This document shows, one piece after another, positions 29,553 through 52,417 of a DNA stretch of 64,000 nucleotides (its first letter is position 1; each line of letters starts with the position of its first letter). Source of the stretch: Bryum argenteum (lineage: Eukaryota > Streptophyta > Bryopsida > Bryales > Bryaceae); assembly GCA_037043015.1 (NCBI GenBank), contig CM073323.1, positions 28,114,758 to 28,178,757 of the forward strand, written 5' to 3'. The notes under the pieces are model-generated. The model did no database searches, was not told the DNA's origin, and was given only the letters and a program-made list of their open reading frames with translations. The position numbers were made by a program, and so were the translations under genes.

Positions 29553-29600
29553 GGTTTAGGGTTTAGGGTTAGGGTTTAAGGTTTAGGGTTTAGGGTTTAC
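29553..29600. repeat. Interstitial telomere-type repeats (TTTAGGG)
   Basis: About seven imperfect units of GGTTTAGGGTTTAGGG type, including TTAGGG and TTTAAGG variants. This is the plant telomere motif at an internal site. The tract is too short to be a chromosome end. Confidence 0.8.
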
Positions 29601-38527: not shown

Positions 38528-40329
38528 ATGTCGCTGTCTTTCGATAACTCAGAGGCCGGGTGCATGCTATTCTATGACTGTCATCGGTCGGTGCCAGCTC
38601 CCTTCCTAACCAAGACTTACCACCTGGTGAACGATCCCTCCACCGACGAAATTGTGTCATGGGGCGAGGACCACACCACATTCGTCGTCTGGCGTCCTCC
38701 CGAGTTCGCCAGAGATCTCTTGCCCAACTATTTCAAGCATAACAACTTCTCTAGCTTCGTCCGCCAGCTCAATACTTACGTAAGCTCCGCATTCTTGCTG
38801 ACAAACTGATACCTCAGTCTTAAGAAGGTTCTTAATCTTAAGCTGCAGAGAGAGAGAGAGAACCATGGAGTTGAGCGATCATTGCTTCGAAGTTTCTTCG
38901 GGTCTTAGAATCATGATACATTGGCTCAAAATTGAGTGTAGGCGACGGTCGGTCACTGTAGGTGCCACGGACTGATGTGAGTTCTGGCTGGCTGGCATTG
39001 AACGTGAAAGTTGGATTATGGTATGATGACAGGGTTTCAGGAAGGTGGTGCCGGACCGGTGGGAGTTCGCGAATGATTTCTTCCGGCGCGGGGAGCGGCA
39101 TCTGCTGTGCGAGATCCACCGGCGGAAGGCATTACAAGCGCCGACCTCGGGGAATTCCAACCAGCAGAGCCGCTCGTTGTCGCCGTCCACTTCGATCGAA
39201 GACCAGCCTCCATGGGGGTCGCCCATCTCATCACCACTGCCGTCGCCTATCCCTCCCATCCACATTGTTAATGTCCCACCTCCAGTACTACCGCAGCTTC
39301 CGCCCCCCCAGCCTCCCTTGAGTATTTCCGATGAGAACGAGCGCCTCCGAAAGGACAACAACCTGCTTTTATCTGAGGTGTCCCGCCTTCGCCGCCTGTA
39401 TGAAGACACTATCAACATGATTCAGCACCAGTTTAAAGGAGCCTCTCCTGAACTCTTCAGTTCCATTGTCAGCAGGTACTGCATCCATCAATGCCCAATT
39501 CCCTTGTACATCACGAATTATAATACATTCTCTTCGAATTATGTGTATATGGTACAATACGGATCGGGTACTGGAAACTGAGAGAATGCGAAGCGGTGTG
39601 ATTATTTTAAGAGAAATATTTAATGTCATGTCGGCCGAGTGTGTACAACGAAGGAGCGGTTTTATGACATCGGCGCCGTTAACTGAATTGAATGCACGTC
39701 GTAAATTGGCTGACATGAAGTGATGGTTTTGCAGCGCCAGAATTGGACAGTCATCGGATTGTCGTGCATTACAACAACAGCTTCTACTCATGGACCGTCC
39801 AGTAGGGAGAAGGGAATTGGAGAATTACGGCGAGCTCTCTGTCCATGTCAGACACCAACAACAACAAAGCGTTAGCCAAGAGGTCTTCTTCTGTAAGAAT
39901 CCTGTGGCAGTTTCATTCCCCTCGTTTCAAGTGTCCATGCAACAGCAACAGCAACAGCAGCAGAATGGTGTCGTCGACTCGAAACAGGTGTGCGAAACGT
40001 CAACGACAGAAGTGAAGCAGCTTCCTGTGAAGCTTTTTGGTGTACCACTGCAGCATAGTAAGCCGATGGAACAGGCAACTATTACTAGTACGCCGACTGC
40101 TAGTTCAGTCAGACATGGTCTTCATGCATCTTCCGACGTTGTGCAACTTGCGGGATTGAAGCGACGGCAACCTGAACCGTGGGACGCGGTGAGTGAGCCC
40201 GTGTTCCTAAGACCGCCTCCTCGGAAGTGTCTGCAAGGAACATCGGAGCTGGGGTCCGAGACCGTGTCCGCTGTGCAGGCGCCGTGGCTGCAGATTTGCG
40301 CCACCCGGGACGAAGGAGTGTACATTTGA
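38528..40329 (+). CDS. HSFB: Class B heat-shock transcription factor
   Basis: Class B HSFs bind heat-shock elements (alternating GAA/TTC) and generally act as repressors or co-regulators in the nucleus. Exons are 38528-38779, 39033-39475 and 39735-40329, giving 429 residues with GT/AG introns. Residues about 23-115 form the HSF DNA-binding domain ([26 protein letters not shown], then [17 protein letters not shown] and CEIHRRK). The first intron sits after RQLNTY, the conserved HSF position. A proline-rich linker is followed by a compact leucine-rich coiled coil (about 181-218) without the class A insertion. LFGV at 332-335 is the class B repressor tetrapeptide. A polyglutamine run (301-308) and a basic LKRR (373-376) that may act in nuclear import are also present. 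The second intron is not usual in this class. The first ATG in frame with the domain was chosen as the start. Confidence 0.93.
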
Positions 40330-43934: not shown

Positions 43935-45571
43935 TTAAAGTTGTTCACAATTGCATGAGGTCTCAAATTCTATAAAACATTCTCCTATTCTTTGATATCT
44001 TAATTTCTTAAGGAGAAAAGAAAACCCAAAAAATGTTCCAATTTTTGCCTTAAGTCATAGTGTATGAAGATGAATCATTTTGCAAATGTAGAGTTTTAGT
44101 TTTCTGTGCCATAGGCAAGAAGACTATTGTAATCACGATGTTTGTGATCTTATAAAGGGCGTGATTGTTTGACCTTTCAAGAGGTGTGTGTGGTTGGTTT
44201 TTCAAAAGTTGTGATTGGTTGACCATATATTCGGCACAAAATACACAATTGCACTATACCCTGTTAGCATTAATTGATATATGCGTTGTACAAATGGTTT
44301 ATATTTAGTCTACCGTATATAATGTAATATATACTTTCCTAATACAATTTGCAAAATATGGCCTTCCATTTATGGTATCAATATACGAGCTTTAGTAAAC
44401 AATCAATATAATATACACAATATAATGGCCTCACTATACAATCTCTTGTATAGTGTTGCAATATACAATATATTGTCAACATTTAGTGTCATACAACGCG
44501 CTATGGACAATCTGCATGTAGTAAGACAAAAGATGGTTACCTGCAATCAACTTTGGTGATAGTGTCCCTCTTGTTTCCATATATTTCCAACAAGAGCATT
44601 TGTGCTTCACAACTCTTGATACTCTGAAGGAGAATCACTTTCGAATTACATAAGTTACATAAATTACATAAGGTAATGAAAATACTTCTCCTTACATGCT
44701 AAAACCTCCAATGGATATTTTAATTCATTATGGACAATTGAATAGTCCAGAAGTAAGACGGCTTTTGTCCGACAAATGCCAAAAGTGCAAGGAATGAAGA
44801 AACGAAACCAAGAATATGTGAATAATCAAAACTATTATTGATTCGTAGAATTTGAAAATTGAAATCGGTGGCCAAATACAAGTTGCTCATATAGAGCATA
44901 ATAGAGTCACATAAGCAGACTAATGCGTTTCAATAAAAGAATATTCTACATGAAGTTGGACCCACTACTTCGTGCTGTGGGCGCGCAACCGACAACCATT
45001 TACTACAAAGGAATACTAGCACTCCTTGCAATAAACAACACTAGACGCTTCTTGATCATTTGCGACATAAAGGTGTTGAAACAAAACGATATCTTAACAT
45101 AGGAACATTCGAGTAGTAGTGTCGGCTCGCAGCTATTAAGCAACACCTGGACTCCACCATCCGCTTTCTTCTCGACTCCACCATCTTCTAGCGCTCGAAC
45201 TTCTTCAATCCAAGTTATTCTTCCTTGAACACTCTCCATGCGTGGATGCGGAAAGCCCAATTGCCGCTGCGGCAGCGAGTGCTAGTGCTCCTCCGGCTTA
45301 TTGTAAGTTGTGCAAATACAACTTGGTGTAGTTGCAATGCCTTGTTAAAAAATCGAGTTGCTGGAGTTGACGGTGTAAAGGAGCTTAGATTGAAGAAGCT
45401 TGTAGTGTCGACTCGTAGCAGATAGGCATGCAGACAAGGGAAAAACTAAGAATACTCCGATGCGAGAAAACACCGTACTTGAGGAAATTTGCAACTTCAT
45501 AGTGAAGTTGATCGGGTCTATTAGAATGAATCATATAATCACTCACAAACTTGAATTGATATAAGGGGTAG
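43935..45571. other. Spacer, no confirmed gene
   Basis: AT-rich with many ATATAC-type stretches at 44270-44520. The segment 45100-45430 has more balanced composition, and a minus-strand frame (45003-45260, TWIEEVRALEDGGVEKKADG) may be a gene fragment, but no family was recognised. Confidence 0.35.
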
Positions 45572-46058
45572 TGTCAGGGACACGGAAACAGATGATAAGA
45601 ATATGTGGAAACTAACAAGAACTGACAGGAGCTTGAATTAACAAGAAGAGTACACGAACAACAACAAGAGAGATGAGCTAGAGCTCCAAGAGATGCGTTG
45701 TCGAGACTGAGGTTGCCCTCAGCCTCGACTCCTATATATACTAGCTAAGAAGAAGGTTCTCCAGAACCTTCCTCAACCTAGGACCTTCTAGGACCTTCCA
45801 AGAACTTCCAAGACCTTCAAGAAGCTTCCAGGGCCTTCCGGAAACTTCAAGGACCTTCCAAAAACTTCCAGAGACTTCCAGGAACTTCCAGAAGTTTCCG
45901 GAAGCTTCTAGAACCTTCTAGAACCTTCCTAAGTTGTCTACCTAGTACGTGGCCGTGACACAGGGAATCTTCAAGGAATCTTCAAGGAATCTTTTAGGGA
46001 ATCTTCAGAGAATATTTTAGAAGAACCTTCTAGAAACTTCTTGTGTATGTCCGTGACA
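45572..46058 (-). mobile_element. Solo LTR with heat-shock element array
   Basis: Read on the minus strand the unit begins TGTCACGGACATA and ends GTGTCCCTGACA, i.e. TG...CA with a TGTCA/TGACA inverted terminus. GGTAG directly repeats on both sides (45567-45571 and 46059-46063), the 5-bp target duplication expected for LTR elements. At 487 bp with no internal domain, it is a solo LTR left by recombination. On the minus strand the order is a U3-like region with the HSE array, a TATATATA box (45733-45740), then about 160 bp resembling R-U5. It is probably copia-like by size, but this is not proven. Confidence 0.8.
45751..45930 (-). promoter_or_regulatory. Heat-shock element array (15 units of 10 bp)
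   Basis: From 45781 to 45930 the sequence is fifteen 10-bp units of the form GAANNTTCNN. TTC is present in all fifteen at fixed spacing, and GAA is perfect in six with near matches (GGA, AGA) in most others. Between 45886 and 45928 nine successive pentamers alternate TTC and GAA without a mismatch. Three pentamers are the HSF minimum. A further perfect trio (TTCTAGAAACTTC) lies at 46028-46040, and GAACCTTC occurs at 45764-45771. The array lies about 10-40 bp upstream of the minus-strand TATA box, so it is placed to drive LTR transcription under heat. Confidence 0.85.
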
Positions 46059-46063
46059 GGTAG

Positions 46064-49547: not shown

Positions 49548-52417
49548 TCAATGGAAGAAAGGGAATGGTATCCTTTTTTTTGAGAAAAGCAGGAGTAGGA
49601 CGCTGAACAGAGTTACCAAAACCGCAACGATTCGAAGCACAAGAGGCAAAAAGCGGAGCACATCCTGACGCACAGGCTTCTTCCTGTAGGTTCTCTTCAG
49701 CAGCTGTTGATCCGACAACGAAAAGTCGCCTTTGGCAGGAAGCAACTTCGTTCGAGTCACCACTTCCTCCACTGTCAGCCCCTGATCAGTTTCCCTCACA
49801 TTGTACACAGAGGAATGGACCTCACTCTCATCACCTGACGGGATTGGAAGAAGGGTCGACCGCTTGACAACCTCGCGCACTTTCACACCCTCAGGAGTTT
49901 CTTCAGACCCAGCCACAGACGAAGACACTGAAGCTTTGATTTGCAAGTATGCTTCTGAGCCCTCCGTGAAATGCTTCTTCTTTGGACGCAGCTTGCCATC
50001 CCATATACTCTTCGCTTTCTCGGTCTCTGCTCTCTCCCTCTCAAACTCCCGTATCAGATCAGTCGAGCCATCTGCATCCATCTTGTATACTGCCTCACTG
50101 TATGTTGGCACCTTCGATGTTGTAGCTCGCAGTACCTTGTACCCGTTCACTGACTCCCATCGCCCTGCTTCATCCACGATCACCTCTTTGTCTGCATCAA
50201 ATTCGGGAAGGTGTTTCGTCTTTCTCTTCTCCCCTTTCTCCTCTTTAACCTCTTTCTTCCGCCCCTGTTTCGACTCTCCAGAAGTTCCGCGTCGATGCTT
50301 CCTCTGCAATTGCCATTCTAAAACCGTTTCAATATCTTCCCACTTCGAGTGAATGCCATACTCGGTTGATAATCAGGCTCTGGCTATGCTTGCAATTTGG
50401 CTAGAATGTTTGTCAACCTTGCAATATAGCTTGATTACTACACGACTAGCTTTGGTAGGAGTCCTCAGTGGGCGATGATTTCAACAAAGCTTTAAGAGAT
50501 GAAGTTGTTGAGGATGCATAAGTGTAAAAATATAAGCACATAGTATAAAGAGCTGAACCTGCGTAATAGAACCGCTTGCATCACTTGAATCGTTCTTCGT
50601 TGACTCCTTACTGCACAGATAGTAAGTATCAGCTTCTTCTCTTAAGGAAGCAATAGAATGGATGAGCCTCCCGTCGCTACTAAACATATTCAAAACAAAG
50701 AAACACTAGACTAATTGATTGCATATCAAAGTGGCATTTGAGCAACCCATACAACTCATCATAGATTCTGGAGTGCAACAGCCATGCATTTACTGTAGAC
50801 TCTATAACCAAAAGCTTCGGTATGCCTCAGCTAAATACTGAAGACAATGTAGATATCTGAAATACAAAGCTGTACATACTTCGAGATGCAAACTAAGTGA
50901 AAATTCACTGCTGCATGTTTAGAGGGCCAAGGATAGATTAGAAAACAATCGTAAATAGAACTAAATTTGTATCGCTGAAGAACGTATCGGTAGACCCACA
51001 CGTATGCAACGAATTCGAGGGCAATCCTCATGATACCTACTCGCAAGAAACATGAGGATGTCTTTGAGCACTTGTAATTAACATCTATGTGTGCACGTTT
51101 GTTTACTCGAAAAGCCGCCCACACATAGACTGAATTGAATGCAAAGAGGACCAAGTATGGACACATAGCAGATCCTCCGTAAAGAACGTCATTACTGTGT
51201 ACAGGCTAATGCACTTGAGCAGCATTCAAATAAGAACATCTTTTGCACCATGAGAACCATGGCAAATCTGGACACAAGAATTTAAGTTCTTACTCGACCA
51301 GCCAGGGCCTCTTGAAAGAATGTTCATGTTAATTACCAACAATTGAAAAATAGAGTTGAAATATAACTAAAGAAAAATGTGAAAAGAATTGCTCACCTCG
51401 CACGATGATGTTCATCTCTTTCCTCGTGATGCTCGTCTCGCTTCTCGCGATGCTCGTCTCCCTTCTCGCGGTGCTCATCTCTCTTCTCGCGGTGCTCGTC
51501 TCTCTTCCCGCGGTGCTCATCTCTCTTCTCGCGGTGATCGTCTCTCTTCTCGTAATGCTCGTCTCTCTTCTCGTGATGCTCGTCTCTCTTCTCGCGATGC
51601 TCGTCTCTCTTCTGGTGATGCTTGCCATTGGCATCGGCATTCGACACGCCCTTGATATTGAAACCACCACTTTCGCTCACTAACAACTGCTTCCCCTTGC
51701 GAGCTACAAAACCTTCACGAGCAGCCTCTTTCGAGAGGTCTCTACTGCAGGGGCCACACAGAAAGAATAATGAAGCTGAATCGAATGTTAAAACTTCAAT
51801 TCGGACCAAAAAAAAGAAGAAGAACGGTTCAAGCCTCCCACCTGCGAGTGCTCTCGCGACGCATAACAGTCTCTCTGGAGCCATCTCTGCAGCACAAGAA
51901 AAATCTGGTCAACAAACATGAAGCCAAAAAATTGAGAAATTAGTCAAATTGTGAGAGGGTCTGGCAGGCACCTGCGTCCAACGGGGTCCTGGTTGACATA
52001 AATTTCGTTCTCGTTCGGGATGTCGTCCTCGGAGACGATTTCTGAGAACGAGTCAGCATACTTGGAGCGGCGTTTGCGGTTGACGACTTCGTGATCAGGC
52101 TCATCGTTGTCAAGGTTGGCGAGCTTGGCTCTCTGCACCTGCGCTTGGAGTGACGTTGCATTATCGCTGTTTCGCTCTATAACGGATTCCAGCGTTTCCA
52201 CATCGCCATCCTTTCGCCGCTTGGGTTTCTCCCTTCGCAGCACTTTCAAAAGCGTGCCCACGAAACCTAGCCCCGCCACTATGCCTACTCCCAGCAGCAC
52301 ATTCCGCTGCGTCTTGTTCAGCTTCCGCTTGCTGCGAACCTCAACCACTCCTCCTCCACTGGGCTCCACATCCACTTCCACCTCCACTTCCTCCATTCTC
52401 CCTGCAATGCGCTTCAA
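49548..52417 (-). CDS. Unrecognised two-membrane-segment protein with KRDEH heptad repeats
   Basis: I infer five exons: 52417-51972, 51886-51842, about 51744-51397, 50679-50559 and 50360-49548. All have GT/AG ends and compatible phases, giving about 590 residues. A second ATG at 52396 is an alternative start. Residues about 40-60 (VLLGVGIVAGLGFVG) form a hydrophobic segment after a basic stretch. Exon 3 encodes about nine tandem heptads of the type KRDEHRE (about residues 209-275), highly charged and probably helical. Exon 5 begins YGIHSKWEDIETVLEWQ, continues with two similar RExVxRxxLLP segments, and ends with a strongly hydrophobic segment (about 555-579) followed by a KKR tail. Those features suggest an integral membrane protein with a long charged loop. 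No domain or family was recognised, and no function is proposed. Confidence 0.75.
51405..51625 (-). repeat. Coding minisatellite, 21-bp unit
   Basis: About ten 21-bp units (plus strand CTCGTCTCTCTTCTCGCGATG type) lie inside exon 3 of the gene at 49548-52417 and encode KRDEHxE heptads. The unit is a multiple of three, so copy-number changes keep the frame. Confidence 0.85.

Follow-up and report, generated by a model that had tools for sequence, protein, structure and literature searches.

The 64-kb stretch of Bryum argenteum DNA analysed here (the window) carries, on its minus strand, a single LTR of 487 bp with the termini TGTCAC...CTGACA in sense orientation. It stands between two exact copies of the duplication GGTAG and has no attached internal region, and the first-pass annotation, which had called it a solo LTR with TG...CA ends, is borne out at both flanks (45567-45571 and 46059-46063). 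We assign this LTR to family A, in which sense position p equals window position 46059 - p, and its features are:

45567..45571, unstranded: left copy of the target site duplication GGTAG
45572..46058, minus strand: solo LTR of family A, 487 bp
45698..45708, minus strand: AGTCTCGACAA (sense 351), predicted 5' end of the transcript and self-primer
45733..45740, minus strand: TATA box TATATATA (sense 319)
45779..45928, minus strand: fifteen 10-bp units with invariant GAA on the sense strand, read as TTC on the plus strand, the first at 45786
45816..45828, minus strand: 3-pentamer site within the ladder (sense 231)
45836..45848, minus strand: 3-pentamer site within the ladder (sense 211)
45886..45928, minus strand: core of nine perfect alternating nGAAn/nTTCn pentamers (sense 131)
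45953..45960, minus strand: internal TGTCACGG, homologous to the outer end of the LTR of sister family B
46023..46040, minus strand: separate, perfect 4-pentamer heat-shock element (HSE) near the start of U3 (sense 19)
46059..46063, unstranded: right copy of the duplication GGTAG

The window also encodes an HSF on the plus strand (38528-40329). An intron interrupts its DNA-binding domain (E 8e-21 for the first exon, with the second-exon piece below cut-off), and we take its LFGV motif to be a class-B marker. This gene lies 5.2 kb from the solo LTR, and the LTR promoter points toward it. A kinase encoded in the window finds its species-named matches in Ceratodon purpureus at 45-54% identity, among the 120 of 386 matches listed, in keeping with a moss as the probable host. 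Elsewhere, seven copies of GGTTTAG form a plant-type telomere-like repeat at a chromosome-internal position (29553-29599), a 21-bp unit recurs ten times with 87% likeness (51407-51622), and an Rfam scan of the 64-kb window gave no match.

The most conspicuous feature of the LTR is its array. Fifteen GAA at exact 10-bp spacing run from sense position 131 to 271, and the fifteen TTC in strict 10-bp register, the nine perfect alternating pentamers and the placement of the array upstream of TATATATA on the minus strand (gap about 40 bp) are all as first described. Both the nine-pentamer run and the 15-unit ladder exceed all 5000 dinucleotide-preserving shuffles of the LTR, in which the longest perfect run was four pentamers (2/5000) and the longest 10-bp ladder likewise four (7/5000). 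With the 64-kb window itself as the background for pentamer-run counts, 63 two-pentamer runs were found outside the solo LTR and none of three or more perfect pentamers.

A search of the genome (258.8 Mb, 25 contigs) led us to reject the possibility that the array is unique to this locus, since the 33-base core has 171 matches at up to three mismatches and the 24-base word from the TATA region has 340, with no control matches in either case. The case that the first-pass annotation had set against its own reading, a recent simple-repeat expansion at one locus, therefore gives way to an array present across the copies of family A. Moreover, a generic 7-pentamer pattern matches 353 times, against 11 for the same pattern read backwards, and all of the matches listed are the family A LTR core or a near variant of it. 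Among viral contigs, five pattern matches yielded no confirmed relative. The 80 LTRs that we fetched comprise 30 5' LTRs, 26 3' LTRs, 17 solo LTRs with an exact 5-bp duplication, the window copy included, and seven others. Full-length copies, for which the first pass had proposed to search, are present as 22 LTR pairs, 21 of them spaced by about 5.7 kb and one (L011/L081) by about 8.6 kb. The two LTRs of a pair differ by 0.21-3.33%, and the outer duplication is exact in 14 pairs, one base off in four, non-matching in two and not judgeable in two; from this divergence and the mostly exact duplications, we conclude that family A has moved in the recent past. At G000:C4:3744021-3761067, four family A LTRs stand at an even spacing of about 5.67 kb, as if head-to-tail elements shared LTRs.

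Array length, which was also to be compared between copies, varies from 4 to 17 ladder units and from 4 to 11 perfect pentamers across the 80 LTRs. The ladder has 15 units in 60 of them, 16-17 in three and fewer in 17, and the longest perfect run is 11 pentamers in two, at most eight in 14 and nine in 64, a proportion that overstates intactness because the set was picked for similarity or presence of the core. In a second sample, the 92 exact-TATA LTRs on C1-C7 among the 100 matches listed (the other eight are on C8), the exact 7-pentamer core is present in 65 and absent, among the matches listed, from 27. Five of these 27 were already in the 80-LTR set, two were not fetched, and the 20 newly fetched resolve into 18 members of family A and two of related families (L093, L095). 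All 18 family A copies keep at least one run of four or more pentamers, often the 4-pentamer site at sense 19, and their arrays show single-base substitutions, indels of 1 bp or length shifts of 10 or 20 bp; the idea that the core-less LTRs form an array-less family was rejected on this basis. When 51 family A copies of exactly 487 bp are compared with the window copy as reference, GAA differs at 24/2295 positions, the TTC slots at 44/2295 and the spacers at 114/3060; the last count is inflated by position 240 of the LTR, at which it is the window copy that departs from the others.

Such changes are what would be expected if the array were a neutral tandem repeat that grows and shrinks without a regulatory role: its length moves in 10- or 20-bp steps even within one insertion, where the two LTRs L079 and L080 measure 509 and 487 bp with ladders of 17 and 15, and 1-bp indels occur in the arrays of many copies. 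We nevertheless consider this reading very improbable, because all 45 GAA letters are kept over the 15 units of one LTR in which the other columns are variable, and because GAA is also kept between families, as set out below. The spread of the ladders and perfect runs constitutes a natural dose series in which HSE number and helical phase could be related to heat output.

The interior places the array in an element of known architecture. Read in pieces from one natural copy, whose frameshifts were left uncorrected, it gives Pfam matches to Retrotrans_gag, Ty3_capsid, an aspartyl protease (one of three models above cut-off), RVT_1, RT_RNaseH, Integrase_H2C2 and a chromodomain (PF00385, E 3.4e-13). 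In the latter we placed by eye, against an HP1 alignment, what is presumably an aromatic cage (Y, W, Y), with residues that straddle a frameshift. The first bases past the 5' LTR, GTTTGTCGAGACT, form a PBS that pairs 11/11 with LTR positions 351-361 (AGTCTCGACAA); the pairing was read from one interior, L049, and the 11 nt are identical in 39 compared LTRs of 487 bp. Shuffled PBS letters reach 11-nt pairing in 0.15% of 20000 trials, and the complementary match starts 25 nt past the TATA box, at the expected transcript start. This complementarity is a predicted self-priming arrangement of the Tf1 type. The CTGACA end beside the PBS is absent from 17/30 5' LTRs (L054, L057, L060, L062, L066 and others; e.g. 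CGACG, CGATGG) and present in 21/26 3' LTRs and in all 17 solo LTRs with a duplication, and imprecision of the self-primer or of strand transfer where U5 meets the PBS perhaps accounts for the deviating 5' ends.

The RT is 65-68% identical to those of Leptobrachium (the better of two), Ascaphus and the fungus Absidia, 59-65% to those of other frogs, 52-53% to Tanacetum (Asteraceae), 50-51% to the alga Closterium and 50% to the lizard Anolis. Phylogenetic analysis of 20 RT rows separates those of seed plants and algae from the other 15 (moss, fungal, vertebrate) at 100/99, in a tree with an arbitrary root, no named Tcn1 reference, a long Anolis branch and no settled order among moss, fungus and vertebrate. 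Taken together, the sequence fits a Ty3/gypsy chromovirus of the Tcn1 (Tf1/sushi) type, and we infer that the solo LTR was formed by recombination between two LTRs of such a self-priming element.

Two related LTR families bear on how the array is maintained. Family B (L114-L117, L119-L121; LTR of 413 bp in L117) starts with TGTCACGGCTACGTACTAG, for which family A has an internal match at position 99, and has perfect runs of 5, 3, 3, 3 and 3 pentamers in L114-L117, L119 and L120 and of 5, 3 and 3 in L121, on ladders of 13-15 units in L114-L117 and L119, nine in L120 and seven in L121. A further variant pair consists of L093, with no run of three and a ladder of 11, and its partner L113, with a run of five in the piece and a ladder of 13. 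Six of the ten related pieces have ladders of 13-15 units. Family C (L095, L122-L131), with LTRs of roughly 260-280 bp by eye, starts with TGTCACGGACATACA as family A does; in its eleven pieces ladders do not exceed three units, and six have one 3-pentamer run, four have none and L129 has a run of four. Most of the 40 scored family C matches are on G000:C1, several with identical flanks, as if they were borne by a C1 repeat. Given its C-like start and its internal B-like match, the family A LTR looks like a composite of a C-like 5' piece and a B-like LTR. In addition, L118 (G000:C10:1268440-1269050) combines a family-A-like U3 (4/128 differ) with a family-B-like U5 and has the look of a recombinant, which suggests an exchange of U3 modules between LTR families.

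Comparison of the window LTR with six family B copies separates the parts of the array. GAA differs at 1/267 positions, the spacers at 59/356 and the TTC slots at 66/267, while R/U5 differs at 120/978 (12%); by column, the three GAA positions differ in 0, 0 and 1 of 89, the next G in 6/89 and the remaining columns in 13-24 of 89. This sum omits four of the ten related copies (L093, L113, L118, L121), with which GAA differs at 5/444. The contrast between GAA and spacers gives a Fisher p of 1.5e-14, which is not a true probability, as the family B copies are related to one another and the differences are non-independent events; it nonetheless speaks against neutral growth and shrinkage. Because the TTC slots diverge most, the greater part of the array has not retained an uninterrupted alternating HSE; what these alignments show to be conserved is a GAA ladder on one strand, in phase with the helix and with a canonical core. 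The earlier proposal that U3 had expanded into an HSE array therefore stands in part: the array is long and family-wide, but because family B has one too it was not expanded in family A alone, and it is mainly the one-strand GAA ladder that is kept.

The one-strand conservation of GAA fits use by HSF through step-type sites beside a high-affinity core, and it leaves room for another GAAG-reading factor or a role in RNA. If a different DNA-binding factor read GAAG repeats on one face of the helix, with the perfect HSE core as a by-product and another cue or none, the kept word would be GAA followed mostly by G on one strand and the TTC slots would be free to diverge, as observed (6/89 changed for the G). 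We regard this as improbable, since both the 9-pentamer core and the 4-pentamer site apart from it have the canonical HSE form, nine in a row lies beyond chance, and family B retains runs of five and three. One-stranded conservation would also follow if the GAA-rich stretch acted in RNA: the genomic RNA includes it within its 3' U3, where it could serve, for instance, as a purine-rich signal for export or processing. Such a signal would not need an exact 10-bp register over 15 units, let alone its maintenance at 13-15 units in six of ten related pieces, and it leaves the perfect TTC pentamers without explanation; we give it very little weight.

We therefore favour, as the likely reading, a solo LTR of a Tcn1-type chromovirus whose U3 array is an HSF-bound enhancer for heat-induced transcription. 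HSF binding, heat induction and the transcript start site are here predictions from sequence. The enhancer of a full-length copy would consist of the array in U3 together with the 4-pentamer site. Heat-activated HSF trimers would occupy neighbouring GAA cores, all on the same face of the helix, using canonical alternating sites in the 9-pentamer core and step-type sites in the rest of the array. The loaded array would drive Pol II from the TATA box downstream, and the transcript would start at or near AGTCTCGACAA and then fold back, such that its first 11 nt, paired with the PBS immediately internal to the 5' LTR, could prime reverse transcription.

Several observations support the HSF-enhancer reading, namely an array beyond all 5000 shuffles, 171 core sites, the far stronger retention of GAA than of spacers between families, the persistence of a run of at least four pentamers in 18/18 fetched core-less family A copies, and the order of array, TATA box and, 25 nt on, the self-primer match. 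Further support comes from Physcomitrium, where 49 of the 100 top-ranked genes in a heat module are described as having the HSE-like motif GAAGYTCTAGA (PMC7073223) and the moss family RLG2 is heat-induced (PMC7466625). The divergence of the TTC slots counts against it, as do the statements that gap and step HREs are mostly insufficient in Brassicaceae copia elements, where 4P HREs go with strong heat induction (PMC5059998), and that activation through step-type HSEs is low (PMC4552642). On balance, the element is probably heat-activated. A wider, speculative and on present grounds unlikely extension is that family A is the chief reservoir of long perfect HSEs in the genome, with about 170-340 dispersed, helically phased GAA ladders that load HSF cooperatively; it would thereby evade silencing in heat and also either distribute heat enhancers across a moss genome or act as a sink for HSF there.

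Finally, the element can be set beside known systems. The Tcn1 clade, which is related to the Tf1/sushi elements of fungi and vertebrates, has been described in mosses and clubmosses, with chromodomains that have an aromatic cage and with predicted self-priming (Neumann et al., 2019; PMC6317226), although for SM-Tcn1 of Selaginella the source reports that neither tRNA priming nor self-priming was found (PMC2864245). Family A shares with this clade the Ty3/gypsy domains, the chromodomain, self-priming and an RT nearer to fungal and vertebrate than to seed-plant rows, whereas an HSE array is not among the features that the available descriptions give for the clade (PMC6317226, PMC2864245). In the titles and opening lines of abstracts of the open-licence literature matches listed, an HSE array is reported for neither a Tcn1-type nor a moss LTR. 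RLG2 of Physcomitrium patens is likewise a moss gypsy family, with strong heat and ABA induction, but its available description mentions no HSE array, and the comparison covers its family type and heat response (PMC7466625). PHRE1 and PHRE2 of moso bamboo are Ty3/gypsy elements examined under heat, but their LTRs are reported to bind TCP, DOF and GATA factors, and the term 'HSE' is absent from that text (PMC8656106). In Cryptococcus, the LTR elements TCN3 and TCN12 are mobile at 37 C and have putative HSEs, but these elements are fungal and, as described, carry two such sites in the TCN3 LTR and one in that of TCN12, without an array (PMC12810828).

Heat capture by retrotransposons is, in the literature seen here, best documented in copia elements of Brassicaceae. 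Like family A, ONSEN/COPIA78 and TERESTRA have HSEs in their LTRs; heat activation has been demonstrated for them and is predicted for family A. HSFA2 binds the ONSEN LTR and HSFA factors are required (PMC3907296). In contrast to family A, with its Ty3/gypsy interior and 9P + 4P sites, these elements are Ty1/copia with at most 4P as described (PMC5059998), and one TERESTRA set has up to five adjacent nGAAn (PMC5059998). Kinship with copia elements or ONSEN was rejected, since Ty3_capsid, RVT_1, Integrase_H2C2 and a chromodomain stand in place of a copia-type pol and the RT is placed elsewhere. The independence from ONSEN that had been suggested at first pass is thus better supported than noted, with a Ty3/gypsy interior, self-priming and RT that are not those of copia, and the HSE density is likewise above that of ONSEN, at 9P + 4P and a 15-unit ladder against the 4P type reported for ONSEN and TERESTRA (PMC5059998). 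If family A is heat-responsive, a self-priming chromovirus from an early-branching land plant evolved the strategy known from these copia elements on its own, with its HSEs laid out as a 10-bp array.
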